From positions 1 through 33,326 of the forward strand of contig JAEUQX010000008.1 of assembly GCA_016788625.1 (NCBI GenBank): a DNA stretch of 33,326 nt. The letters run 5' to 3'. Shown here in pieces: positions 2,933 to 28,188 of the stretch. The notes under the pieces were generated by a model. That model was given only the letters and a program-made list of their open reading frames with translations. It had not been told where the DNA came from and ran no database searches. Position 1 is the stretch's first letter. Each line of letters opens with the position of its first letter. Made by a program: the position numbers and the translations under genes. Source of the DNA: Anaerolineae bacterium. Its GTDB lineage: Bacteria; Chloroflexota; Anaerolineae; Aggregatilineales; Phototrophicaceae.

Positions 2933-4516
2933 GTGAAGCGGTCAGGTTTGCTCAAGCTGTTTTTGCCACTGCTGGTTGTATTGGTGGCGGCCTGTGAAGG
3001 GCTGGCTGGTGAACCAGCAGTGGTGGGGACTTTGCCAGTGTCTCGACCGTTGGTTGATGAGTCGATTGTGACGACTCCTGAAGTAGTTGCCCCGCCCGAA
3101 GGTGAGGCTGATGTGGCGCTGGGCGCGCAGATATATGCCGCGAACTGCACCCGCTGCCATGGTCTGACGGGGCAGGGGGATGGTGAACTCGTGCAGCTCG
3201 GCCAGGTCGTGATGCCGATTGACTTTACCGACCCGGCCACCTCGGCAGGTGCGACGCCAGAGGAATGGTTCAGCATCATCACCAATGGCAGGCTCGATAA
3301 GCTTATGCCGCCGTGGGCGGATAAGCTCAGCGCGGATGAGCGTTGGGCTGTTACGATGTACCTCTTTACGCTGTCGCAAAATCCGCCGCAGGTTCAACCC
3401 CAGGTGGCGGGACTGATCACCGGGAATCTGGTAAGCGGTACGGCTGGGGCGGCGCTGCCAGTTGTGACAAATCTGCGCCTGCACGTTCTCAATCAGGAAT
3501 TCGCGCTGGAACAGACTTTGGATGGTCAGGTTGCCGATGATGGCAGCTTCCAGTTCTCGGATATTGCCGTACAGTCTGGCAACCACTATGTCGTCAGTGT
3601 TGAATCCAGCGGCGTGACGTTCGCCAGCGATATTCAATCGTTCTCCGACGGTGAGGCGGCTCTCAACATACCGGTCCCGGTGTATGAGTTCACGACTGAT
3701 TCAAGCGTGCTGCAAATCGACCGCCTGCTTTCACAGGTGGAGGTGGTCGAGGGCGATCTTCAGGTCGTTCAGCTACTTTCGATTGTCAACACTTCCGATC
3801 GTGCCTTCTACGATACAGAAACTTCTGCTTCGATCAGAATTGCTCTGCCGGAAGGCGCACAACCGCTCCAGTTTGGTGATGAGAGCCGTCGATTTTCCTA
3901 CTCTGCGGATGGGCGCGAGATCATTGATACCGCGCCTGTCATGCCAGGTGATGTGCATACAGTGCATCTCAGTTATGCCGTGCCCTATACCGGCAGCGCT
4001 GAGATTCAACAGGTGTTGGATTTCCCGCTGAACAATGGCTTTGAAGTGTTGGTTGCCCAGCCGGGTATCAGCGTCAGCGGAGCGAATGTTGCAGCGCTGG
4101 GTGCTGGTTTCGGCGGGATGATGTCGTTCGGTAATGCCGAGGCGCAGGTTGCTGGTACACCGATTACGTTTACTGTCAGTGGCGAAGTCGCCGTGACGAC
4201 AACGACAACAACGACGACAGCAGGGGGTGGCTCGTCCCAGCCTTCTCCAGTAGCCGTCATCCTGATCGCCTTGGGCGTTCTGGCGCTGGTAGCCGCGCTT
4301 GTGCTTTACCTGCGCGAACGTGGCCAGAACCGCACGTCCCCGCAGTCTGCTGCTCCAGGACAGGAGCGCATCAACGAGTTGGTCAAACAGATCGCTGATC
4401 TGGATATGGAACATCAAACAGGCAAGATCGCGAAGAAAATCTACGAGAAGCGGCGTATCGCTTTGAAGGCTGAACTGATGCGACTTGTCAAGCAATCCGA
4501 GCAGAATGCGACGTAA
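2933..4516 (+). CDS. Lipoprotein cytochrome c with beta-rich middle region and C-terminal membrane helix
   Basis: The 527-residue protein begins at GTG 2933, with GGAAGG 6 nt upstream and the previous stop 3 nt earlier. It has a signal peptide with lipobox VAAC (Cys21), then a class I monoheme cytochrome c domain (about 61-150) with CTRCH at 72-76 and the probable distal ligand Met125 in LMPPW. A long extracytoplasmic region (150-420) looks beta-rich and Ig/carboxypeptidase-regulatory-like but was not matched to a named family. An eight-Thr linker precedes a membrane helix (about 437-461). The cytoplasmic tail (479-527) contains LDMEHQTGKIAKKIY, closely resembling the preceding protein. It is probably an electron carrier, a maturation-linked sensor or an assembly factor; the function is unknown. 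Confidence 0.82.
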   Translation: MKRSGLLKLFLPLLVVLVAACEGLAGEPAVVGTLPVSRPLVDESIVTTPEVVAPPEGEADVALGAQIYAANCTRCHGLTGQGDGELVQLGQVVMPIDFTDPATSAGATPEEWFSIITNGRLDKLMPPWADKLSADERWAVTMYLFTLSQNPPQVQPQVAGLITGNLVSGTAGAALPVVTNLRLHVLNQEFALEQTLDGQVADDGSFQFSDIAVQSGNHYVVSVESSGVTFASDIQSFSDGEAALNIPVPVYEFTTDSSVLQIDRLLSQVEVVEGDLQVVQLLSIVNTSDRAFYDTETSASIRIALPEGAQPLQFGDESRRFSYSADGREIIDTAPVMPGDVHTVHLSYAVPYTGSAEIQQVLDFPLNNGFEVLVAQPGISVSGANVAALGAGFGGMMSFGNAEAQVAGTPITFTVSGEVAVTTTTTTTTAGGGSSQPSPVAVILIALGVLALVAALVLYLRERGQNRTSPQSAAPGQERINELVKQIADLDMEHQTGKIAKKIYEKRRIALKAELMRLVKQSEQNAT

Positions 4517-4546
4517 CAGCAGATGAGAGGGTTGCGAGGTGCTGTG

Positions 4547-6346
4547 ATGCTGTTGGTGACGAGGTTGTTCAGTGGGTTGCGAACCCGTTTGGTGGTCGCG
4601 TTTGTAGTTGTCATGCTTATTCCCGTGCTGGGGATCGGCGTCTATGGCTACTCATTCACGCATCAGATGCTTTCAGAGAAGACGCTGGAAACCTCGCTCA
4701 ATCAGGTTCAGTTGCAGGCACAGCATATCGTCCGCTCGCTGGCGCAGGCTCAGGGAGATGCACTGCATCTCTCTGAGTTGCCCAGCTTGACGGCTTTCCG
4801 ACGAGGCCAGGGTGGATTGGCGGCGGTTGAGCAGGATTTCTTGGTGCTGCTCTCGGTTCGTCCGGTCTATCAGAATCTGCGATATATCGATGAGACAGGG
4901 CGCGAGCTTGTGCGCGTAGATTCGGACGGTGAACGCGCGTTCGTGGTGGCCGCGGAGCAGCTGGCTGACCGCAGCCAAGCCTCGTATTTTCAGAACATCA
5001 TTCCTCTGCGAACAGCTTCCAGCTATGTATCCCCGTTTGCCTATGAGGGACTGGTAGATGGCGGTCCGGCTGTTGTGCATTTTGCGCTGCGGCTGCCGCC
5101 TGGTGATGGTTTGGTTCTTGTGGATATGTATGCCAGCGCCGTTCTCCAGAATCTTCCTGCCGACAGCGCTACCGAAGCCTGGGGTATGGTTGATCAGGAC
5201 GGTAAGTTCATGATGTTCCCGCAGAATTTCGAACAGGTCTCTGTAGAAAGGGACGACGGGACGCGCCAGATCGTACCAGAGTTGGACGCTATGCTTTCGG
5301 GGCGCGCGGGTACATTTGAGACGGGCGTTAGTGTGTACGCTTACCATACCATCTTTCCGTCATCCATGATGCCCAATCAGTTCTGGGTGCTGTATCGGGA
5401 CATGCCGAGTTCGGTGTTGTATGCCGAAATTGACCAGTTCTATGGTCGATCTGTCATATTTGTCGGGCTGGCATTGGTCACTGCAATCATGCTGGCACTG
5501 CTCATTGCGCGCAACATTGCGGCTCCAGTGCTGGATTTGCAGCGCAAACTTGCAGAGTTTGGTCATTCTGGAACGGCTCCTCAGGCGCCAACGGTGCTGC
5601 CATCTGGCGAGATCGGCGCGCTGACCCATACATTCTATGACATGGCACAGGAACTGGAGCGCAAACGTCGCGACGCGCGGTTGTTGATTGAACGCTTGAT
5701 TACGGCCCAGGAAGAAGAACGCAAACTCGTTGCTTACGACTTGCATGATGGCTTAATCCAGCAGATGGTTGGTGCTCGGCTGTATCTGACCCACTGTCGG
5801 CAGCATTGTCCGACGCCTGATGTAAATGGCTTTAAACGCGGTTGCGACGCGCTGAGTGAGGCAATTGTGGAAGGGCGGCGCATTATTGAAGGGCTGCGTC
5901 CTGCTACCCTCGATGACCTTGGGCTGAGCGCGGCGCTGGCTGAACTGGCGCAGTCAACAGCGGCAGCGGCAGGGTGGACACTTGATCTTGATCTGCGTCC
6001 ACTGTCACAGGAACCGGACAAGGTTGTCAGCGTTACGGTCTACCGTATCGCCCAGGAAGCACTGAACAATGCTCGTAAGCACGCGCAGGCAAAGCATGTG
6101 TGTTTCCGGCTTAGCAACGGTGAAGGTATTTCGCTGCGCGTGCAGGATGATGGTGTAGGTTTTGACACAGAACGAGTCATCCGCGAGGAACGAGGGTTTG
6201 GTATTACGACGATGCGCGAGCGCGCGGAACTGCTCAATGGATTCTGTGTATTGGACAGCAGACCCCAACAGGGAACAACGGTATCGGTATGGATCCCTTG
6301 GCAGTTGTCCGTCGCAGCGGTAGATGGAGCCAAGGCTCATGGATGA
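4547..6346 (+). CDS. Sensor histidine kinase, NarX/DegS-like (HisKA_3 type) with extracytoplasmic Cache-like sensor
   Basis: The frame opens at ATG 4523 (607 residues), but ATG 4547 has GCGAGGT 6 nt upstream and is the better start (599 residues). Numbering here is from 4523. Membrane helices at about 23-43 and 309-329 bracket an extracytoplasmic region that begins with RYIDETGRELVRVDS (120-134), typical of a dCache/PAS-like sensor. A HAMP-like linker (330-385) follows. The HisKA_3 H-box is DLHDGLIQQ with His408, and the HATPase_c domain has EALNNARKH (512-520), DDGVGF (542-547) and GFGITTMRER (558-567). It would autophosphorylate and signal to the response regulator, whose start overlaps its 3' end. 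Placement between the ccm genes and the multiheme operon suggests respiratory control; the ligand is unknown. Confidence 0.93.
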   Translation: MLLVTRLFSGLRTRLVVAFVVVMLIPVLGIGVYGYSFTHQMLSEKTLETSLNQVQLQAQHIVRSLAQAQGDALHLSELPSLTAFRRGQGGLAAVEQDFLVLLSVRPVYQNLRYIDETGRELVRVDSDGERAFVVAAEQLADRSQASYFQNIIPLRTASSYVSPFAYEGLVDGGPAVVHFALRLPPGDGLVLVDMYASAVLQNLPADSATEAWGMVDQDGKFMMFPQNFEQVSVERDDGTRQIVPELDAMLSGRAGTFETGVSVYAYHTIFPSSMMPNQFWVLYRDMPSSVLYAEIDQFYGRSVIFVGLALVTAIMLALLIARNIAAPVLDLQRKLAEFGHSGTAPQAPTVLPSGEIGALTHTFYDMAQELERKRRDARLLIERLITAQEEERKLVAYDLHDGLIQQMVGARLYLTHCRQHCPTPDVNGFKRGCDALSEAIVEGRRIIEGLRPATLDDLGLSAALAELAQSTAAAAGWTLDLDLRPLSQEPDKVVSVTVYRIAQEALNNARKHAQAKHVCFRLSNGEGISLRVQDDGVGFDTERVIREERGFGITTMRERAELLNGFCVLDSRPQQGTTVSVWIPWQLSVAAVDGAKAHG

Positions 6347-7007
6347 ACATTATTCTCAACTGGTGCGCGTCGCCCTGGTCGATGATCATGGCATCGTGCG
6401 GCAAGGTTTGCGGGCGCTATTTATGCAGTCCGGTTTCGATGTCGTTGCCGAAGGGGAGAATGGGTCACAGGCGCTGATCATCGCGCGGGAGTATCAGCCG
6501 GATGTGATGCTGCTGGACATTCGTATGAAGGACGGCGATGGGTTGCAGAGTCTGCCTGCCATTAAGGCTGCCGCGCCTCGCATGAGCGTCATTATGCTCA
6601 CAACATATGCCAATCCGGGCTATCTGGCGCGTGCCATTAGTGGCGGCGCGGCAGGCTACCTCTCGAAAGAGACCGATCCTGACCAGATTGTGCGGGCAGT
6701 GCGCGCGGCGGCGGCCGGTGATCAGCTGATTGATCGAAGTCTGTTGGAGGCAGCATTGGCACAGGCTGTCGATTTTTCGCCTCCGACCCCTGAACCGAAC
6801 GATATGCCCGTGGAAGCGCTGTCGGAACGCGAACGGGATGTTCTGCGCCTGATGGTCAGCGGCATGAACAACGCTGTGATTGCCGAAACCCTGAATATCA
6901 GCCTGCCAACTGTGAAGACCCATGTACAGCATATCTTTCAGAAACTGCATGTTTCAGATCGAACCCAGGCGGCACTGCTTGCTGTTCGCCTTGGTCTGGC
7001 GGTGTGA
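6339..7007 (+). CDS. NarL/FixJ-family response regulator (receiver + LuxR-type HTH)
   Basis: This is the cognate regulator of the kinase just upstream; the start codon overlaps the last codons of the kinase gene. The ATG at 6324 is possible, but ATG 6339 has GGAG 9 nt upstream and gives the usual short N-terminus (222 residues). Numbered from 6339, the receiver domain has acidic residues D15-D16, the phosphoacceptor D60 in LLDIRM, the switch Thr in LTTYA (about 88) and K110 in LSKE. The LuxR/GerE HTH covers about 159-222, with ALSERERDVLRLM and the recognition helix region SLPTVKTHVQHIF. All catalytic receiver residues are present. It probably binds the 215 nt leader of the following cytochrome operon. 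Confidence 0.95.
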   Translation: MDEHYSQLVRVALVDDHGIVRQGLRALFMQSGFDVVAEGENGSQALIIAREYQPDVMLLDIRMKDGDGLQSLPAIKAAAPRMSVIMLTTYANPGYLARAISGGAAGYLSKETDPDQIVRAVRAAAAGDQLIDRSLLEAALAQAVDFSPPTPEPNDMPVEALSERERDVLRLMVSGMNNAVIAETLNISLPTVKTHVQHIFQKLHVSDRTQAALLAVRLGLAV

Positions 7008-7158: not shown

Positions 7159-7187
7159 TTGTGGGAGGCCATACAGACCTCCCACAA
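7159..7187 (+). promoter_or_regulatory. Perfect 10 bp stem-loop in the leader of the nonaheme cytochrome operon
   Basis: TTGTGGGAGG (7159-7168) and CCTCCCACAA (7178-7187) are perfect reverse complements separated by a 9 nt loop. The hairpin lies between the response regulator stop (7007) and the cytochrome start (7223). Only a broken U-rich stretch follows (UAUCUAUU), so it is a weak terminator at best. It may attenuate read-through from the ccm/two-component operon, or stabilise or control the cytochrome mRNA. Confidence 0.55.
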
Positions 7188-7222: not shown

Positions 7223-8839
7223 ATGCGAAGCATGAAAATAGGACTGCTGCTCTTTGTCGGATCAATCTTGATTGCTGCTGGTGTATTCATCTTGTCTGAT
7301 ACGCCAACGCTGGCGCAGGATGGCGACGACCGCGACTATATTGGTGCGGGCGAATGTGAATCGTGCCATCGTGATCTGTCGCGTAATCATGAAGACAGCG
7401 TTCACGCGCTGGCTTTGCAGCGCACTGACCGGGATAAGGATGCTATTCTGGGTGATTTTGCTCAGGGTAACGCCGAGCGTACCGTGCAACTTCCGGGCGA
7501 AGATGCTGCTCGCCCATTTACAGCGGATGACATCGCTTACGCAATCGGCTCAGGCCGTTACACACAGGCCTATGTAGTTGAGGTCGAGAATAACGTCTAT
7601 CAGGTGCTACCTGCGCGCTGGAATACGGTCACTCAATCTTGGGAAGCCTATTCGCTGGCCGCAAGCTGGCCCGACCCCGCCTATGACTTTGTTCAGAACT
7701 GCGCGGGCTGTCATGCAGTCGGCGTAAATGTTGAACGTGGTCGCTGGGAGGACGCCGGGGTTCTTTGCGAGGCTTGTCACGGCCCTGGTAGTGAACACGC
7801 CGATGTAGCGAGCGACGCCGGGCGAAGACCGGACGATGAGGAATTGGTCGAAATACGTGCAGCCATTGACCCCGGCACGGATCCGCAGGTGTGCGGACAG
7901 TGCCACAGTCGCGGCACTACGCCGGAAGGGTCACCCGCATATCCGGTAAATTATCGACCGGGCGGCGATTTGTTCGTTGACGGTGGATACACGCTTTACC
8001 TGCCAGATGATGGTGTCCATGGATACCCGTCTGGACATGCCAGCCAGCCCAACATGCAGTTCAATGAATGGTATGTGACGGGGCACGCTGCCGCGCTAAC
8101 CAGCCTGCTTGACTCTGGTGATGCTGCGGACGAATGCTTGAACTGCCACAGCGGCGATTACCGTTATGTGCAGCAGCTCATCGCTGTGGCTGCAGCGGGT
8201 GAACGCGCAGGGACACCCCCGGATGCGCTGACGCCTGAAACCGCGCGGTTTGGCATAACCTGTATCACTTGTCACGACCCTCACAGTGAGGAAGGACGCC
8301 CCTCCAATCTCGTCGAGGAAAGCTATACCTTGTGCGTAAGCTGCCACAGCAACGCCGGTTTTGTAGGAGGCATTCATCATCCCGTTCAGGAGATGTTCGA
8401 AGGCCTGCGTGTGGTTGATGAGGTTATATCACGTCCCAGTGACCACTTTACTGCCGAAGACGGCCCCGACTGCCAGACGTGTCATTTCCCACAAGTGCCA
8501 GTTGGGTCGTCAACTCGTGCCAGTCACGCATTGCTGCCAGTAATGCCCGGCGCTGCCATCAATCTGGAAGGGGTCATCGATAGCTGCACTGCCTGCCACG
8601 AAGGCCAGGTCGATGCTGCCTCGATGCAGCGGCTCATTGATGATATTCAGGCGTCCATGCGCTCACGCATCGAAGCGGCGCGCGCGCGCATTACCACGGC
8701 CACGCCGCCCTGGGTGATTACTGCGCTCGATTTTGTCGAGGGTGACGGCAGTTTTGGTGTTCACAACTATGCCTATGCGGACGACTTGCTCGATGCCGTT
8801 GATGCCGCACTAGGGTTGTTCCCGTCTGAGGAGAACTAA
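7223..8839 (+). CDS. Nonaheme cytochrome c (c554/NrfA-like multiheme protein), exported
   Basis: The 538-residue secreted protein has a signal peptide (1-31, ending TLAQ) and nine CxxCH heme sites at residues 45, 160, 182, 224, 305, 347, 371, 417 and 455. All are standard; no CxxCK or long-spaced catalytic heme motif was seen. The start segment YIGAGECESCHRDL...SVHALAL and the repeated H-A-A spacing resemble the cytochrome c554/c-prime multiheme group. The C-terminal helix and GSFGVHNYAYADDLL tail resemble the ending of NrfA-like proteins. AAAGG lies 10 nt before ATG 7223; ATG 7232 is the alternative. It is the first gene of a four-gene operon with a second nonaheme protein, an Fe-S protein and a HybB/NrfD protein. 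Probable role: extracytoplasmic electron transfer, or reduction of an unknown acceptor. No substrate is assignable. Confidence 0.9.
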   Translation: MRSMKIGLLLFVGSILIAAGVFILSDTPTLAQDGDDRDYIGAGECESCHRDLSRNHEDSVHALALQRTDRDKDAILGDFAQGNAERTVQLPGEDAARPFTADDIAYAIGSGRYTQAYVVEVENNVYQVLPARWNTVTQSWEAYSLAASWPDPAYDFVQNCAGCHAVGVNVERGRWEDAGVLCEACHGPGSEHADVASDAGRRPDDEELVEIRAAIDPGTDPQVCGQCHSRGTTPEGSPAYPVNYRPGGDLFVDGGYTLYLPDDGVHGYPSGHASQPNMQFNEWYVTGHAAALTSLLDSGDAADECLNCHSGDYRYVQQLIAVAAAGERAGTPPDALTPETARFGITCITCHDPHSEEGRPSNLVEESYTLCVSCHSNAGFVGGIHHPVQEMFEGLRVVDEVISRPSDHFTAEDGPDCQTCHFPQVPVGSSTRASHALLPVMPGAAINLEGVIDSCTACHEGQVDAASMQRLIDDIQASMRSRIEAARARITTATPPWVITALDFVEGDGSFGVHNYAYADDLLDAVDAALGLFPSEEN

Positions 8840-8841
8840 TC

Positions 8842-9936
8842 ATGACCTTCACGCGTCGTCGTCTCATCATCTTTTGTGCTGGTTTGGGTGTTACACTGCT
8901 GATGGCCGGGCTGCTGCCATTCATTGCCCTGGCCCAAGAGGCGACGCCCGAAGCCACCCCGCTACCACCAGGTTTCTACGACATAGAATCGATCTCGGCT
9001 ATTGAGCCGACGGGGAACAACAGCTATTGCGCTGTCTGTCATAGCCAACCGCTGCAAGTCGTGACTCTGACTGACGGTTACATCCTCAATTTGTACGTCA
9101 GCCCGGAGATCATCGCTAATTCGGTGCATGGCAGCAGCAGCGAGCAAGGCGCGCTGGGCTGTGTGGATTGCCACGGACAGGACTCATTCCCGCACAGCGG
9201 ACCGACGCCCGAAGATCAGCGCCTGTTTTCACTCTCCGGCATCACCATGTGTATCGGTTGTCATGTTGAACAGGCAGACGAATTGCAGCATGGTCTTCAT
9301 GAGCAGGCGATTGCGCGCGGCAACACATCAGCCGCAGTCTGCACGGATTGTCACGGCGCACATGATATTCGCGCTGTCGCCAGCTTCCCGGAACTCGTCG
9401 CGGGTGTTTGTGGCGACTGCCACGAGACTTCGCTCGCCGAGTGGCGCGCCAGCCCACATGTTGACATTGGGCCGCTGGATTGCGCGACCTGCCACTCGCC
9501 GCATACGCAGGCGATACGCGGCGGCGTGTCTACCACCGAGCTGTGCATCAATTGTCATAAAGAGATGCCCGAAGTGTGGGTGCATGTGCAGCATACTGAA
9601 GTTGACCCCGCCGTCGAATGTGCTGATTGCCACATGTACCAGGGAACCGAGCACGAGCTTGCAACGGTTGCTTCGCTGCCGTCTACAGAGTCGACTGGGC
9701 ACACAATGAACGTCGAGACAGTGCCGTGTACAACTTGTCATACGGAATTAGCACAAACCGTCGCTCTGGAAGCAACACCGCAGCCAGTGGTGGAGGAACC
9801 TCCGGTTGAAACTGTCGAGCAGGTTTCCGAGGGTGGAACAGGCGACTTCATCCAGCTACTCCAAGGTCTAATTCTGGGTCTTGGTTTTGGCGCAACGCTG
9901 GCGGCTGTTTTTGTCTCGCGTGGTAACCGCCGCTGA
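8842..9936 (+). CDS. Second nonaheme cytochrome c, C-terminally membrane-anchored
   Basis: The 364-residue protein has an N-terminal signal (1-31) followed by a low-complexity QEATPEATPLPPG linker. Nine CxxCH sites lie at residues 63, 107, 137, 167, 190, 214, 235, 260 and 296, a dense pattern of one heme per about 30 residues. A Pro/Glu/Val-rich spacer (308-333) and one C-terminal helix (about 336-358) ending in SRGNRR anchor it in the membrane. It resembles the NapC/NrfH-like and doubled-CXXCH families in density, though not obviously in fold. The ribosome site is GAGGAG just before the ATG, 2 nt after the previous stop, which indicates tight coupling. It is probably the membrane-proximal cytochrome that links the Fe-S/NrfD module to the larger soluble nonaheme protein. 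Confidence 0.9.
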   Translation: MTFTRRRLIIFCAGLGVTLLMAGLLPFIALAQEATPEATPLPPGFYDIESISAIEPTGNNSYCAVCHSQPLQVVTLTDGYILNLYVSPEIIANSVHGSSSEQGALGCVDCHGQDSFPHSGPTPEDQRLFSLSGITMCIGCHVEQADELQHGLHEQAIARGNTSAAVCTDCHGAHDIRAVASFPELVAGVCGDCHETSLAEWRASPHVDIGPLDCATCHSPHTQAIRGGVSTTELCINCHKEMPEVWVHVQHTEVDPAVECADCHMYQGTEHELATVASLPSTESTGHTMNVETVPCTTCHTELAQTVALEATPQPVVEEPPVETVEQVSEGGTGDFIQLLQGLILGLGFGATLAAVFVSRGNRR

Positions 9937-9964
9937 TTAGCAGAGAAGGGGCTTAGAGACCGTT

Positions 9965-10807
9965 ATGAGCGAGAATCCACAGGAACAACAACCCACGACA
10001 CTCCCTCCACAGCCGAGTAGCGGGATTATCTCACGGCGGGAATTCGTGGCACTGCTCGTCGGTACCGGGGCGACATTGGTCATGGCTGCAACGCTATCGG
10101 AACCGCTCGATTACTTTGCCCGCGATATTCTGACGCAGCGCGGGTCTGAAGAGGGGCATTCCAGGCATCGCTGGGGCATGGTGATCGACCTGCGCACTTG
10201 TATTGGCTGCGACTATTGTGTCTATGCCTGTCAGGCTACCAACGACACTGCCGACGATATGCGCTGGAACATTCGCATCACGGACGAAACGCCCAGGGGC
10301 GATACGTTCTATGTAACACGTCCCTGTCTGCATTGTCACCATGCGCCGTGTGTGCACGTGTGTCCGGTTGCCGCCACATATGCGCGCTCGGACGGTCTGG
10401 TGGTGATGGATTATGACAAGTGCATCGGTTGCCGCTACTGCCAGACGGCCTGCCCGTATGGGGCGCGCTCGTTCAACTGGCGTGAACGCAGCGATGTGAA
10501 TACACATACACCAGAGTGGGGGGCACCCGAAGTCCCGCGTCGTCCAAAGGGTGTGGTCGAGAAGTGTACTTTCTGCATTCATCGAATCGATGCGGGTCTC
10601 GCCAATGGTCTGATGCCCGGCGTAGATGTGGATGCGACGCCCGCCTGCATCAATATCTGCCCGGTTCATGCGCGGCACTTTGGTGATCTGAACGATCCCA
10701 ACAGTTCGGTGTCCCGCATCATTGCTTCGCAGCCTACGATACGACTGCGCGAAGATCTAGGTACTGACCCAAGTGTTTACTATATTCCGCCGGAGGGACT
10801 GGTCTGA
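9965..10807 (+). CDS. Tat-exported four-cluster ferredoxin subunit (HybA/NrfC/PsrB/CbcU type)
   Basis: The 280-residue protein opens with a twin-arginine signal, SRREFVALL (R24-R25), and a hydrophobic stretch. Sixteen cysteines then form four [4Fe-4S] sites: C79/82/85/89 (CIGCDYCVYAC), C121/124/129/133, C153/156/159/163 (CIGCRYCQTAC) and C201/204 with C228/232. This is the standard electron-wiring subunit of the CISM superfamily, located on the outer face of the membrane and partnered by an NrfD/HybB membrane subunit. The end (YYIPPEGLV) is typical for the family. The stop overlaps the next start (TGATG), so the two proteins are coupled. No molybdopterin or hydrogenase gene is adjacent; the electron partner appears to be the nonaheme cytochromes. 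Confidence 0.95.
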   Translation: MSENPQEQQPTTLPPQPSSGIISRREFVALLVGTGATLVMAATLSEPLDYFARDILTQRGSEEGHSRHRWGMVIDLRTCIGCDYCVYACQATNDTADDMRWNIRITDETPRGDTFYVTRPCLHCHHAPCVHVCPVAATYARSDGLVVMDYDKCIGCRYCQTACPYGARSFNWRERSDVNTHTPEWGAPEVPRRPKGVVEKCTFCIHRIDAGLANGLMPGVDVDATPACINICPVHARHFGDLNDPNSSVSRIIASQPTIRLREDLGTDPSVYYIPPEGLV

Positions 10808-12060
10808 TGGCTGCTGAAATGCATCTCGAAGAGCGTCCTTTTCGCCGCCTGGGGCTGCGGAAGGCGTCATTGCCTGTCAAACTATGGATTGTGCTGCTGG
10901 GGCTGTGTCTGATCATTGGCGTGGTGAGCGGCGTCTACGTGCTGGTGAACGGCCTGGGGGTAACGAACCTCAGCAATGCACTGCCCTGGGGATTGTGGAT
11001 TACCCTCGACCTCTCGTCAATCGGGCTTGGCGCAGGCGCGTTCACGCTCTCGGCTGCCGTTTACCTGCTCGGGCTGAAGCGGTTTGAAGCCATTGCTCGC
11101 GCTGCTGTCATGGTGGGACTGTTAGGGTACACCTCCGCGATGGCTGCTCTGTTCATCGATATTGGCCGCCCTGACCGCTTCTATCACCCGCTGATCTACT
11201 GGAACGTGCATTCGGTCCTGTGGGAAATCACGATGTGCGTCGTGCTGTATTCGACAGTCCTCGTGACAGAGCTGTTTCCAGTGGTGGTTGAAAGCAGCGC
11301 GCGATTGCGTCAGATCAAGTTCCTGCGGAGTCTGGCGCACAGACTGCACAGTTTCATGCCCGTTGTCGCGTTGCTCGGTGTTGGTCTTTCGATGCTGCAC
11401 CAGTCGTCGCTAGGTGCGACTTATGGCATTCTCACTGCGCGCCCAATCTGGTACTCGCCCAGCGCACCTGTGCTGTTTATTCTTTCTGCCGTGACGGCAG
11501 GCGTATCGCTGACGTTGCTGGTGACACTGCTATCGGGAAAGCTGCTGGCGAAGGAAATGATCCCGCCCGATATTGTCAGCGGCGTTGCGCGCTTGATCGG
11601 CTTCGCCTGCATCGCTTACCTCTACCTGAAGATGTGGAGCTGGGCGGCGACCAATTACTACAGCTATGTGCCCGAACAGCAGCTTGGCGCGGAAGTTCTG
11701 AAGCGCTATACGCCGTATGATTTCACCTTCTGGTTTGGTGAGGTTGTGTTTGGGGCACTGATCCCGGCGGTGATTTTTCTGTGGCGGCGCACCCGTCAGA
11801 ATCATAATGTTTTGATGCTGGCGGCCATCATGGTCATTGCTGGCCTTGTGATCAACCGCTGGAATATGACGCTTTCCGGGTTTGTCATCCCACTGGATTG
11901 GTCACCGGGTGTTCGCGACGTTTTCCCGATCAACTCATATGAACCTGCGCTGGTGGAGTGGGGGGTAGCCATTGGAATCGTCGCATACTCGTGGCTGGCG
12001 TACACATTGGCTGTTCGTTTTCTCAACATCTACCCTGATGCGCGCGATCTGCCGAAATAA
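10807..12060 (+). CDS. NrfD/HybB-family quinone-interacting membrane subunit
   Basis: The 417-residue polytopic protein has about ten membrane helices. Its N-terminal signature NALPWGLWITLD...GLGAGAF and the FIDIGRPDRFYHPL motif are characteristic of HybB/NrfD (PF03916-type) subunits, which exchange electrons between the quinone pool and a periplasmic Fe-S protein. The C-terminal segment SYEPALVEWGVAIGIVAYSWLAY also matches HybB-type endings. The start overlaps the stop of the Fe-S gene. With that subunit and two nonaheme cytochromes it should form a quinol:cytochrome complex. The direction (quinol oxidation or quinone reduction) and any proton pumping cannot be read from sequence. This is the last gene before an intrinsic terminator. 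Confidence 0.94.
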   Translation: MAAEMHLEERPFRRLGLRKASLPVKLWIVLLGLCLIIGVVSGVYVLVNGLGVTNLSNALPWGLWITLDLSSIGLGAGAFTLSAAVYLLGLKRFEAIARAAVMVGLLGYTSAMAALFIDIGRPDRFYHPLIYWNVHSVLWEITMCVVLYSTVLVTELFPVVVESSARLRQIKFLRSLAHRLHSFMPVVALLGVGLSMLHQSSLGATYGILTARPIWYSPSAPVLFILSAVTAGVSLTLLVTLLSGKLLAKEMIPPDIVSGVARLIGFACIAYLYLKMWSWAATNYYSYVPEQQLGAEVLKRYTPYDFTFWFGEVVFGALIPAVIFLWRRTRQNHNVLMLAAIMVIAGLVINRWNMTLSGFVIPLDWSPGVRDVFPINSYEPALVEWGVAIGIVAYSWLAYTLAVRFLNIYPDARDLPK

Positions 12061-12090: not shown

Positions 12091-12129
12091 AGAGGATTGC
12101 TCGCAACTTGCCAGCAATCCTCTCTTTTT
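12091..12129 (+). terminator. Intrinsic terminator of the multiheme/NrfD operon
   Basis: An 11 bp perfect stem, AGAGGATTGCT (12091-12101) with AGCAATCCTCT (12113-12123), encloses an 11 nt loop and is followed by TTTTT (12125-12129). It lies 30 nt after the NrfD stop and faces the end of the convergent sugar dehydrogenase gene. On the - strand the stem is followed by only three T, so it should act mainly on + strand transcription. Confidence 0.9.
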
Positions 12130-24285: not shown

Positions 24286-27200
24286 CTATTGCGGAGCGGT
24301 GTCCTGGCAGGCCGCAGGTGGTAGCCCTGCCAGGAATGGAGTCAGTGTTTCGTCTGCGATGGGCGATGCTTCTGTCAGCTTGTCGCATGTTAGGCGCAGT
24401 AGATCGGCATCGGTCAGGGGCGGCTGCGCGTTGTTCAAATCGAGTATTACCTGGAAGTCCATGCTGAATACCCGATTGCTACCATCTACGAAATTCAGGC
24501 GCCGGCTGTCGGTATTGTAATTGTAGGCAAGCACATCCTCGGTCAGCGAGGCATACAACCGGCTAGGTGTCGTCTGCCAGATTTGCGCTGGACCGTTCAG
24601 AAAATCGAACAGCAGATAGTCGCCGTCGGCAAAGGCAAATGCGCGCGTTGCTACGTCGGGTAGCGTCACCAGCAACTCTACTTTGTCAACATCAACCTGC
24701 CAGATCTCTGCTTGCTCGGTCTCGTACATCACCACCAAAAACGTGCCACCCTTCAATGGAATGACATTGGTTACGCGGCTTTCCTTGGCTCCCAGCGTGC
24801 TGATGATGGTTGAATCAATGGCTGACCACACTTCCGCAGGTTGATTGCCCTCGTAACGCACCACGAAGTACACATCTCCCAGGATCGACAGACTGGCTTC
24901 CATGTTGCCGTTCAACTGCGCGGTACGGCGTCCCTCTGGCAGTGACCAAACCTCTGAAACGGTATTGTCGGTATAGTCTACGACCAGCACCTGCTGATCC
25001 GCAGCGAGTTCGTCCAGGTCAATGTTTGCCAGGTTGCCGTTCAGCGTGGCAACAGGCCCTAACGGATCGGTTTTCCAGAGTTCGCTCGCCGACCCATCTG
25101 CATAGCGCACGAAGAAGTATTGGCGATCCAGCACCGTATGACTGACATCAATATCGCCCCGGAAGGTGTATACGACTTCGATAGGCGGTTCCAGATTCCA
25201 GATTTGCGCGGGCTGTCCGCCTGCATACTGGGTGATGAAATACGGGTTTTCTTGAATAGTTGTTACCGTTGTGATGCGCCCGACTACCTGGGTCAACCGC
25301 TCAAACGGTTCTGTCCGCCATACTTCATCGAGTTCGCCATTCATGCGAAGGGCGAAAATGTCGTTGTCATAGAATACGGCGATGACATCATCAGCGCGCT
25401 GTTCAAGCTGCCCGGTTAGGGTGTTCCAGATGCCACCTTGCAGCGTGTTGTCGCTGTATGAGACGAAGAAGTAGCCGTTTGCCAGCGGGGTGGTCTGGTC
25501 AACATCACCCGTGAGTTCTGCGACCAGTTTGAGGGTGGCTGTTTCCCATACATCGCTGGGTGCTTCGTCTTCATAGCGCAGGATGAAGTAATTGCCGTCT
25601 TCGAGCGGGATGAAATTCGGGATTTCGATCTCTTCGGCTGCATTTGCAGGCGGCGCGACCTCTTTGGTCAACTGCGCACCAGCAGTGAGTGAGTCAGTAC
25701 TCCAGATTTCATCAGGTGTGTCGTCGGCATAGTCCACTACAAAAGCGCGCCCACCCGCGATTCCAATGACCTGCTCAACAGGCCCGTTGAGCTGCGTAAC
25801 CAATGTAGGCGGTGAGAGCTGCCAGAATTCATCGGGCGCTTCGGCGTAATCCAATACGACGAAGTTCGCGCCCAGGAACCAGCTCTGCACGATACCCAGA
25901 CTAAAGCTATAGGTTGCGTTGGCCTGGAGCGCAGCACGCATGGCTTCTCCCGCGCGCCCGTTGGTGCTGTCGGTCTCCTCAGAGAGCGCAATCGTGGCGG
26001 CCTCCGCGGCCAGGCGCAGCGCCAATTCGGAGTCGCTCCCCAGCAGTGCGTTGACATCGCGAAGCAGGGTGCTTGCCAGATAACGTCGAAGCTGTTGCTC
26101 AGCTTGAACAGCCGTCGACTGCGCCAGTACCTGGGCAGTGGCGGCCTGATTCAACGCAGCCTGCGCCGTGTTTTGCAACACGCTGGCCGCAGCAATGGCG
26201 GTAGCATTAGCGTCCTGCGAGTCTTGCAGTGCCTGGGCGGTGGCAGCGGCGTTGGCGGCGGCTGTCTCAGCGGCGGCCTGTGCGCTGGCAGCGGCCTCGG
26301 CTTGTGCCTGCGCGGTAGCGGCATCATCGCGCGCCTGTGCCTGACCCGTGGCGATGGCATCGCGTTCTTGAGCCAACTGGTCATTAATGGCAACAGCAGT
26401 GGCATATTCGCTTGTCGTATCGGCTTGCAGCGTCGAGAACGAGTCGCGTTCCTGTATTGTCCGCAGGCTGAACATGGCACCGAGCGCGATAATGATGCCG
26501 AACAGCGCCAGAAGTGCCGCGAGCAGCGCCAGTGTGCGTCTGCGGACGCTGCTTTGTCTGACCTGCTTAACTTCAATCGATTCACGCAGCTGGTTGCTCA
26601 ACTCTACATAATCGAGCAGTAGAGGTGAGGGAAGATGATCCGGATCACGTACCCAGGAGCGTGCTTCATCAAGCTGTGTGCCACGGAGCAGCGCTTCGTC
26701 CGTATATCCGCGTGCTATCCAGTCCTCTGCCTTGCGTTCCAGTGCATTTGCATAACGCAGGTTGGCAGCGTCATCTTCCAGCCAGGCCGCCAGACGTTTC
26801 CATTCCAGAGGCAGCGTTTCGTGTGAGGGGGCGATGGACAAATCGCCACTTTCGGGATCTAGGCGCTCGAACACAATCTGCGCGTCAATCAGTCGATTGA
26901 TGACCTCGGCCACTTCGTCCGGCTGTGCCCACGTGAACACAAAGCGGCTGCGCGGCAGGGCGCGGGCGATCGGATTGCCATCGTCAACGACTTCGACAAG
27001 CCAGGTCAGAATGCGCCGTGCGATGAGCTGCTGAATGGCGGTCAGGCTGGAATAGACATTCTCAAGGTGTCTCTCTAATCCTTCTCGTACGCCGCCGAGC
27101 GAATCATACTGTGCCAGGTCAAGTGGTTGGTTATCGTACAGCTTGCGTAAGGTGAACGACAGGCGTGGCATGACGCCGACTTCGCTGCCTTGTGCCACAT

Positions 27201-28188
27201 CCTGCGTGACGCGTTCGATTAAGCTGCGCTCGAAATGGGCACCGACAGCAAAAGCCGGGCGCGCGATGGCTTCAGCCAGGTCGCGGTCGTGCAGCGGCTG
27301 TACCGCGAAGAGATTCTTTTGCAGGAGTGAAGCCCATTTGGGGTACTCCTGCAAGCGGCGCTCGAAATCGGCCCGCAGCGCTACCACAACGACGCTGCCG
27401 TTTTCGTTGCTGGTGATGGCGATGTTTAACGCTTCAAGGAAATAAATCCGGTCAGCAAGTGAGAAGCGTGTGAAGACATTCTCGAAGGTATCCAGGATGA
27501 GCATGACACGCCGCTGCATCGTGCCAATTTCGCGCAGCACCTCGTCCAGCCCGCCCGCGCTTGTTGCCAGGCGGCGCGAAACCGAGTCGCTCGGGTCGAA
27601 GAAAGGTTGCAGATGCGCGGCCAATTCTTGAATAGGATTGTTTTCGAGCTTGATGTAGATAGGTAGCCACTGCTGATCCCTGTTCTGCAAGCTGGGAATC
27701 AGTCCGGCTTGAATGAGCGAGGTCTTGCCACTGCCGCCGGGGCCAACCAGGGCGATGACTTGGCCGCCATCAGCAATGTGTTGGTGCAAGCGTTCGACAA
27801 AGCCCTGACGACCGAAGAAATATGGCGCGTCAGCGGGCGAATAGGGGGCTAAACCCTTATACGGATTCATCTGCCGCTCGCGCGCCAGCGTCTGCAATCG
27901 TTCGAGCAGTGCGGCATAACCCTGATCATAATTGGTTGCCAGGTCAATGGTCTCGTTTGTCAAGGGGTCAGGAATGGGACAGGGCTGCAAAATGACGGGC
28001 ACATTGATGATTTCGGGTTGCAGTAAGTGTTCCCAAAATGATGAGGCGGCCGTCTGTGGCTCTAGCAGGATCAGATTCAAATCACGAGCTGCGTCCGCCC
28101 GTTGAGTAATTGCAATGCCAGATTGTTGCAGATCGCGCACCAGGCGGCGTGCTTGATCACTGACCAAGTGATTAATGTAGAGCAGCAT
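24286..28188 (-). CDS. nSTAND ATPase with TIR-like N-terminus, membrane helix, Ala-rich coiled coil and Trp-repeat C-terminus
   Basis: The 1300-residue protein has six parts. (1) Residues 1-105 look like a degenerate TIR domain (LLYINH start, LNLILLEPQTAASSFW, VPVILQPCPIP, YDQGYAALLERL). (2) An nSTAND NTPase opens with NPYKGLAPYSPADAPYFFGR (108-127), Walker A GPGGSGKTS (149-157), Walker B VMLILDTFE (228-236) and ALRADF (270-275). (3) A winged-helix-like part ends in SHETLPLEWKRLAAWL (455-470). (4) One membrane helix lies at about 552-573. (5) An Ala/Gln-rich coiled coil spans 583-705. (6) About 12 repeats of about 40 residues with a (E/Q)(V/I/L)W core span 772-1258, before a short Cys-containing tail. 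Relatives usually carry WD40 repeats there. It is probably a signalling or conflict-type ATPase; the ligand and output are unknown. Confidence 0.88.
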   Translation of the reverse strand: MLLYINHLVSDQARRLVRDLQQSGIAITQRADAARDLNLILLEPQTAASSFWEHLLQPEIINVPVILQPCPIPDPLTNETIDLATNYDQGYAALLERLQTLARERQMNPYKGLAPYSPADAPYFFGRQGFVERLHQHIADGGQVIALVGPGGSGKTSLIQAGLIPSLQNRDQQWLPIYIKLENNPIQELAAHLQPFFDPSDSVSRRLATSAGGLDEVLREIGTMQRRVMLILDTFENVFTRFSLADRIYFLEALNIAITSNENGSVVVVALRADFERRLQEYPKWASLLQKNLFAVQPLHDRDLAEAIARPAFAVGAHFERSLIERVTQDVAQGSEVGVMPRLSFTLRKLYDNQPLDLAQYDSLGGVREGLERHLENVYSSLTAIQQLIARRILTWLVEVVDDGNPIARALPRSRFVFTWAQPDEVAEVINRLIDAQIVFERLDPESGDLSIAPSHETLPLEWKRLAAWLEDDAANLRYANALERKAEDWIARGYTDEALLRGTQLDEARSWVRDPDHLPSPLLLDYVELSNQLRESIEVKQVRQSSVRRRTLALLAALLALFGIIIALGAMFSLRTIQERDSFSTLQADTTSEYATAVAINDQLAQERDAIATGQAQARDDAATAQAQAEAAASAQAAAETAAANAAATAQALQDSQDANATAIAAASVLQNTAQAALNQAATAQVLAQSTAVQAEQQLRRYLASTLLRDVNALLGSDSELALRLAAEAATIALSEETDSTNGRAGEAMRAALQANATYSFSLGIVQSWFLGANFVVLDYAEAPDEFWQLSPPTLVTQLNGPVEQVIGIAGGRAFVVDYADDTPDEIWSTDSLTAGAQLTKEVAPPANAAEEIEIPNFIPLEDGNYFILRYEDEAPSDVWETATLKLVAELTGDVDQTTPLANGYFFVSYSDNTLQGGIWNTLTGQLEQRADDVIAVFYDNDIFALRMNGELDEVWRTEPFERLTQVVGRITTVTTIQENPYFITQYAGGQPAQIWNLEPPIEVVYTFRGDIDVSHTVLDRQYFFVRYADGSASELWKTDPLGPVATLNGNLANIDLDELAADQQVLVVDYTDNTVSEVWSLPEGRRTAQLNGNMEASLSILGDVYFVVRYEGNQPAEVWSAIDSTIISTLGAKESRVTNVIPLKGGTFLVVMYETEQAEIWQVDVDKVELLVTLPDVATRAFAFADGDYLLFDFLNGPAQIWQTTPSRLYASLTEDVLAYNYNTDSRRLNFVDGSNRVFSMDFQVILDLNNAQPPLTDADLLRLTCDKLTEASPIADETLTPFLAGLPPAACQDTAPQ
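24415..25875 (-). repeat. About 12 tandem ~40-residue Trp-containing repeats
   Basis: Residues 772-1258 of the nSTAND protein repeat a pattern of YF(V/F)V.Y.(D/G)...(A/S)E(V/I/L)W, then a short loop and a (A/T).LNG-like strand. Examples are PDEIWSTDSL, SDVWETATL, DEVWRTEPF, AQIWNLEPP, SELWKTDPL, SEVWSLPEG, AEVWSAIDS, AEIWQVDVD and AQIWQTTPS. The units are diverged at protein level. They look like beta-propeller blades but lack the GH and WD dipeptides of classical WD40. Confidence 0.8.
26074..26442 (-). repeat. Low-complexity Ala/Gln/Thr-rich coiled-coil segment
   Basis: Residues 583-705 of the nSTAND protein consist largely of Ala, Gln, Thr, Asp and Glu (for example TAQAQAEAAASAQAAAETAA) directly after the membrane helix. 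This is a long helical stalk between the membrane and the repeat domain. It explains the spurious open frames on the opposite strand here. Confidence 0.8.

Follow-up and report, generated by a model that had tools for sequence, protein, structure and literature searches.

How a bacterium might use two different nine-heme cytochromes encoded side by side with a quinone-site module, and whether such a gene set is complete in itself, is the question raised by a four-gene operon in a 33,326-nucleotide (nt) stretch of Anaerolineae DNA (contig JAEUQX010000008.1; hereafter the window). The assembly (6.6 Mb, 744 contigs; Chloroflexota) has same-family relatives labelled Aggregatilineales. We lean, with somewhat better than even confidence, towards reading the operon as a membrane-anchored, quinone-linked reductase on the Nrf plan, in which an OcwA-type nonaheme cytochrome takes the place of the pentaheme NrfA. 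The genes are called A, B, C and D in window order, and B' denotes the A-linked relative of B in loci without C-D.

Gene content of the operon

7223–8839, + strand: A, nonaheme c-type cytochrome of the OcwA type, carrying a signal peptide; probably the terminal (catalytic) subunit (538 residues, nine CxxCH)
8842–9936, + strand: B, second nonaheme cytochrome, with a signal peptide and a membrane helix at its C terminus; probably the electron bridge from C-D to A (364 residues, nine CxxCH)
9965–10807, + strand: C, DsrO/QrcC/TtrB/NrfC superfamily protein exported by twin-arginine translocation (Tat), bearing four [4Fe-4S]-type motifs (280 residues, 16 Cys)
10807–12060, + strand: D, NrfD-family integral membrane quinone-site subunit of QrcD/HmcC/HybB type (417 residues, PF03916 111 bits)
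12091–12129, + strand: intrinsic terminator closing the operon (10-bp stem and T-run in the sequence)

The genes are closely packed, with 2 nt between A and B, 28 nt between B and C, and a 1-nt overlap of C and D. Nine CxxCH motifs are counted in each of A and B, against means of 0.02 (A) and 0.05 (B) and a maximum of 2 in shuffled copies, which agrees with the original prediction of four tightly linked genes carrying 18 such sites. Its assignment of C as a Tat-exported protein with four [4Fe-4S] sites and of D as a HybB/NrfD-type subunit is likewise upheld: C has an N-terminal SRREF Tat motif and 16 cysteines arranged as four [4Fe-4S]-type motifs, and D passes the PF03916 NrfD cut-off at 111 bits. 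The terminator that it placed after the operon is present as a perfect 10-bp stem (12091–12100/12114–12123) followed by a T-run; an automatic scan overlooked it because the loop is longer than 8. The claim that the set contains nothing else holds for the four operon genes and not for their surroundings, since the same strand also encodes, immediately before A, cytochrome c maturation (Ccm) proteins, a monoheme cytochrome, a HisKA_3 kinase and a NarL-type regulator.

A is an OcwA-type cytochrome with a probable open-heme site

Sequence comparison aligns A with OcwA of Thermincola potens (PDB 6i5b) over nearly its full length (phmmer E 1.2e-48, residues 31–529). The AlphaFold2 model of A (predicted local distance difference test, pLDDT, 81; predicted template modelling score, pTM, 0.77) matches OcwA over 440 residues at 3.7 Å (VIA Z 28.2; Foldseek E 5e-32). 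Further fold matches descend from OmhA (Z 19.9) through octaheme nitrite reductases (about 15.9), NrfA (15.7), MccA (10) and HAO (9) to c554 (5), a series that is the published kinship of OcwA itself. The two proteins share their length class, nine CxxCH in the same order, homology along the whole chain (28–31% identity in structure alignments), a c554-like plus NrfA-like order and three C-terminal helices.

In OcwA two of the hemes, numbers 2 and 5, are open, and a His-His pair lies over each (PMC6703420). We compared these distal sites in an alignment of 40 A-family sequences with OcwA, in which OcwA chain index plus 29 gives the published numbering (His-His 252 and 351 become 281 and 380). 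Residues H385 and H386 of A correspond to OcwA HH380/381 over heme 5, the first kept in 40 of 40 aligned sequences and the second in 37. The six other distal histidines of OcwA are invariant across the alignment and were paired with their hemes by count and conservation. The heme-2 His-His pair was not found in the A family in the 40-sequence alignment, where a gap and an Asn usually stand instead. At the position of OcwA Met373 (chain index), a candidate heme-9 ligand, 39 of 40 sequences have His. Because the heme-2 pair is missing, A is a variant and not OcwA proper, while being OcwA-type by homology and fold; judged from its sequence, it looks like an OcwA homologue that has kept the NrfA-like heme-5 site and altered the second. 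CxxCK is absent from A, all nine heme motifs being CxxCH, and the NrfA family PF02335 gives partial matches of about 20–35 bits on relatives of A, with none reported for A of the window.

The operon had been described as having no catalytic oxidoreductase. This description does not stand: since A is homologous to a known reductase and keeps the heme-5 His-His pair, the operon has a catalytic candidate of its own. The c554/NrfA-like features and possible catalytic role that had been noticed in the larger cytochrome are supported, and A has a probable catalytic heme. Among the substrates of OcwA are Fe(III) oxide, electrodes, flavins, anthraquinone-2,6-disulfonate (AQDS) and hydroxylamine; nitrite is reduced at the slow rate of 1 per min, and sulfite is not reduced (PMC6703420).

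C and D, a probable quinone module

At the superfamily level, an exported protein with four [4Fe-4S] motifs adjacent to an NrfD-family membrane protein is a quinone module, and the families of C and D agree with the earlier placement of the operon among quinone-linked multiheme systems of the Hmc/Nhc/Qrc/Mcc/Nrf kind. Against NCBIfam, C scores 214.8 bits for DsrO (cut-off 200), 172 for QrcC, 166 for ArrB, 148 for TtrB and 145.5 for NrfC. D scores 265 bits for QrcD (cut-off 570), 190 for HmcC, 159 for HybB and 34.5 for NrfD proper.

Six residues of D (D68, Y108, D118, S136, Y148 and R351) do not vary among the 29 D proteins aligned. Five of them (all but R351), matched by spacing, are placed exactly as D70, Y110, D120, S138 and Y150 of QrcD, and we propose R351 as the counterpart of QrcD R358. 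Mutation of QrcD D70, Y110, S138 or Y150 abolishes Qrc function, which is electrogenic quinone reduction (PMC13059093). Since the QrcD-type residues are invariant and identically spaced, the quinone site of D is probably intact. The direction of electron flow is not readable from D, because the characterised QrcD runs in the quinone-reducing direction.

A changes partners and B stays with its module

A was found in 46 of 101 close relatives, mostly from one order, that of the window within Anaerolineae. In a search of 400 genomes across Chloroflexota all strong matches came from the class of the window, and a plasmid collection returned only a weak match in Granulicella. These counts cover Chloroflexota genomes and the plasmid collection; other phyla were not searched systematically and no absence is claimed there. 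Layouts were counted in fetched stretches that partly overlap between collections, so that the figures are loci and not independent events.

Three main layouts recur. A-B-C-D is found at 16 loci, the window included; at 12 loci A is fused to a B-related octaheme domain, giving a 17-heme protein beside C-D; and at 15 loci A lies near an NrfH/NapC-type heptaheme cytochrome, nearly always with B'. A-B' alone also occurs. The fused domain matches a hidden Markov model profile of B at E 1e-21 to 1e-31. We rejected a description of the fused proteins as A plus B, the domain being a B-related octaheme that resembles B mainly over its later hemes.

B itself has a C-terminal hydrophobic segment and a weak best match in the PDB (NrfB, 2ozy, E 6e-6); the nine-heme cytochrome of Desulfovibrio gave no PDB sequence match to A or B at E<=1. 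In the tree of B proteins, all 16 C-D-linked B fall on one side and 25 B' on the other of a branch with support 100/100 and length 2.33. Membrane anchoring, called by a hydrophobic C-terminal segment as a simple proxy, follows the same division: A has its own segment at 0 of 15 distinct A-B-C-D loci and at 22 of 22 A-B' loci, and the fused proteins carry one in 11 of 11 cases. Closest to A of the window is the A protein of L023 (61% identity, clade support 100/96), which has B', its own anchor and no C-D. Since this A pairs with B' without C-D while the B tree splits by module, A swaps partner and B stays with its module.

Besides the operon, the window's genome carries a second A-B' pair (contig C172, L046:293-5169) beside a divergent NrfH/NapC-type heptaheme cytochrome (NrfH 54.6 bits, PF03264 33.5 bits). 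This locus is one of the 15 counted above, and the genome thus holds both variants of the quinone module.

Other cytochrome genes were seen near relatives of A. A rarer layout in another family of the order (L034:3416-10133, L066, L069) joins a 9-heme protein and a NirT-like 9-heme protein to a 13-heme A-type protein. In a genome of the same class and another family (G144, L086:5659-15500), an 18-heme tandem-A protein, a 22-heme B-like protein, a 1248-residue cytochrome with 32 hemes and B' occur together, possibly as a long extracellular wire. A decaheme cytochrome of about 720 residues, often beside A loci (L027:843-3005, L030:5641-7845 and L037:5333-7693, among others), consists of two repeats (AFxHWDxE...CAKCH) and has a weak DmsE-type family match.

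Proposed function

The reductase that we favour builds on features computed directly: the homology of A to OcwA with its heme-5 site, the quinone-site residues of D, the segregation of B with C-D, the anchor pattern and the fusion of A beside C-D. From these, we would expect the four proteins to form a physical complex at the outer face of the membrane, running in the quinol-oxidising direction. Menaquinol would be oxidised at an outer-face site of D; its electrons would cross the four [4Fe-4S] clusters in C, then the nine hemes of B, which is membrane-anchored, and arrive at the nine hemes in A. They would leave at the open heme 5, under the His-His pair on its distal face, where the acceptor may be a small molecule such as nitrite, hydroxylamine or nitric oxide, or else a shuttle or a chelated metal close to the membrane. 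B would be an adaptor matched to C-D that holds the anchorless A at the membrane; because B splits by module and the anchor of A is missing only with B-C-D, this role and the order D-C-B-A are the simplest reading. A role as terminal reductase, one of two that the original prediction had offered, is the one we prefer.

Several observations weigh against this assignment. C and D are not NrfC and NrfD proper, D being nearest to QrcD, HmcC and HybB, and both Qrc and Hyd-2 reduce quinone (PMC13059093; PMC8076601). OcwA is a cell-surface extracellular reductase with a very low nitrite rate (PMC6703420). The structure model of B is poor (pLDDT 52, pTM 0.34) and gives no fold for it. The genome encodes a true NrfA (contig C740, 486 bits), beside which nitrite reduction by A would be redundant. 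Linkage and fusion support a complex, short of proof, and the activity is predicted from sequence and model.

Other loci of the genome bear on the substrate and on the completeness of the operon. With a true NrfA present on C740, a role of A as NrfA replacement was rejected; narG had no match in the window's genome, and a nitrate reduction partner was rejected with it. Contig C673 holds a TtrABC-like molybdoenzyme cluster (L047:9646-15050; TtrA 500 bits, cut-off 1750) with its own kinase and regulator upstream. It contains the genome's only other NrfD match, together with Fe-S and molybdenum subunits of its own, and a missing molybdoenzyme partner for the operon was rejected accordingly. Because of the C740 NrfA, the lack of a narG match and the self-contained C673 cluster, nitrite does not suggest itself as the substrate and nothing points to a missing catalytic subunit; a required subunit encoded elsewhere, raised earlier as a possible refutation, did not emerge. 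We note that the C740 NrfA (L088:2517-3851) has an N-terminal hydrophobic segment and neither nrfH nor nrfBCD adjacent.

Alternative readings

An extracellular route, in which quinol electrons would pass to minerals, humics, electrodes or partner cells and A would be the exit cytochrome as OcwA is in Thermincola, appears unlikely but accounts for part of the evidence. Ferric reductases of the cell surface, OcwA and OmhA, are the closest characterised relatives of A, and decaheme and larger cytochromes adjoin some relatives' loci. However, each main layout has an anchor that ties A, directly or through its partner, to the cytoplasmic membrane: that of B, that of A beside B' (22/22) or that of the fused proteins (11/11). 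Among the operon genes none was seen for a porin, a wall-spanning cytochrome or a pilin. The two histidines above the open heme are almost strictly kept, and a pure wire would have no need of them.

We regard as improbable a reversed system, an electrogenic cytochrome-to-menaquinone oxidoreductase of Qrc/Nhc kind in which an outside donor would deliver electrons through A and B to quinone. QrcD is the best family of D (265 bits), and the counterparts of D70, Y110, S138 and Y150, together with that of D120, are present at identical spacing and invariant in the 29 D proteins. Hydroxylamine oxidation, too, is within the abilities of OcwA (PMC6703420). Yet both characterised relatives of A, OcwA and OmhA, are assigned as reductases, and the A-B module is elsewhere paired with NrfH/NapC-type proteins. 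Such proteins are best known as quinol dehydrogenases, and some members run in reverse.

That B-C-D would be a general quinol dehydrogenase also feeding the lone NrfA, with A as a side branch, is very improbable: the NrfA gene (C740:2517-3851) has no nrfH or nrfBCD adjacent and 20 of 30 NrfA genomes among the relatives have A (Fisher p 0.002, uncorrected for kinship), but 10 NrfA genomes are without A, 22 A genomes are without NrfA, and adjacency and fusion tie B to A and not to NrfA.

Returning to the quinone-linked reductase, we propose tentatively, and with clearly less than even confidence, that it represents an undescribed family of respiratory complexes of Anaerolineae with an OcwA-type catalytic head bearing one open heme, an adaptor nonaheme cytochrome holding that head to the membrane, an exchangeable Qrc-like or NrfH/NapC-type module and a substrate other than nitrite, for which the genome already encodes NrfA.

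Comparison with known systems

The parallel with NrfABCD, the quinol:nitrite oxidoreductase of E. coli, extends to the gene order (multiheme, multiheme, Fe-S, NrfD-family), to nearby heme-lyase genes, as in NrfEFG, and to a NarL-type regulator. It also includes a catalytic head served by two alternative quinone modules, which for NrfA are NrfB(CD) or NrfH (PMC8840924; PMC8076601). However, A lacks CxxCK and is not NrfA, the operon encodes 18 hemes where Nrf has 10, and the Nrf equivalogs stay below their cut-offs (NrfB 22.5 of 166.6 bits, NrfC 145.5 of 377.6, NrfD 34.5 of 347.6). The predicted mode of action is that of Nrf, but the operon is neither Nrf itself nor Qrc, Dsr or Hmc.

With Qrc, Hmc and Nhc of sulfate reducers the operon shares the superfamilies of C and D, and D keeps the quinone-site and proton-path residues of QrcD. 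The molybdopterin-like QrcB gene of QrcABCD is not in the operon, and D reaches 265 of the 570 bits of the QrcD equivalog. NhcABCD contains a nine-heme cytochrome as well, but one without a PDB sequence match to A or B. For Qrc and Nhc, the assigned electron flow runs from cytochrome to quinone. As for DsrMKJOP, C passes the DsrO cut-off (214.8 vs 200) but D fails that of DsrP (48.5 vs 350), and DsrMKJ are not in the operon. The sulfite reductase MccACD similarly combines a multiheme c reductase, an Fe-S protein and an NrfD-family protein with no molybdenum subunit, and its fold resembles A at Z 10; A is nearer to OcwA, and the operon has the nonaheme B in addition.

Of the two cell-surface cytochromes, OmhA of Carboxydothermus ferrireducens (PDB 6qvm) has a C-terminal part homologous to A (E 2e-26), with the HHP motif and a fold match of Z 19.9, but is an undecaheme S-layer protein. 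OcwA differs from A by the heme-2 His-His pair, absent from all A relatives here, and by Met373, whose column is His in 39 of 40. It is also exported alone, whereas A is co-encoded with B, C and D and would be held at the membrane.

No described complex with two nonaheme cytochromes on such a module, nor this Chloroflexota system, was found in the literature searched, in line with the original prediction. What that prediction missed is the OcwA kinship, the parallel with nrfABCD and its heme lyases, the fused 17-heme variants and the NrfH/NapC-type partner, including the copy in the same genome.

Genes flanking the operon

2–1465, + strand: CcmF/NrfE heme-lyase subunit for cytochrome c maturation, start probably lost at the window edge (PF16327/PF01578; TIGR00353 265 bits)
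1462–1917, + strand: CcmH/NrfF-like heme-lyase subunit (TIGR03147 33 bits, under its cut-off; CPVC motif)
1920–2495, + strand: CcmG-like thioredoxin (CGPC)
2501–2929, + strand: small CcmI-like membrane protein, a tentative name with no family match (recurs in Ccm clusters of relatives)
2933–4516, + strand: secreted monoheme cytochrome c with a long non-heme C-terminal extension and a membrane anchor (domain matches)
4523–6346, + strand: membrane sensor histidine kinase, partner of the NarL-type regulator (HAMP, HisKA_3)
6324–7007, + strand: NarL-type response regulator, probable regulator of the operon (receiver and LuxR/GerE domains)
7159–7187, no strand assigned: perfect inverted repeat of 10 bp lying in the gap of 215 nt that precedes A, putative regulator site or hairpin (sequence)

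These upstream gene types (Ccm, monoheme cytochrome, kinase and regulator) recur beside relatives' loci, where the NarL-type regulator also adjoins A. The monoheme cytochrome (2933–4516) is repeatedly adjacent to A-B-C-D loci. The inverted repeat at 7159–7187 (TTGTGGGAGG/CCTCCCACAA), about 35 nt 5' of the start codon of A, may bind a regulator or act as an attenuator, to judge from its letters.

On the 3' side, the operon is followed by a convergent sugar-dehydrogenase-like gene and then by a polysaccharide cluster. Adjoining that cluster, positions 24286–28188 of the window encode a 1300-residue nSTAND1 NTPase protein with no match to a PADLOC defence family.

Implications

OcwA-type cytochromes, best known as isolated surface proteins of Gram-positive iron reducers, are now tied to a quinone module and a bridging cytochrome. 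The predicted path from membrane to acceptor is complete and testable, and the natural fusions could be expressed as one 17-heme protein. A catalytic head of one type that comes with either of two quinone modules offers a natural comparison, and the operon points to a concrete anaerobic respiration to seek in uncultured Anaerolineae.

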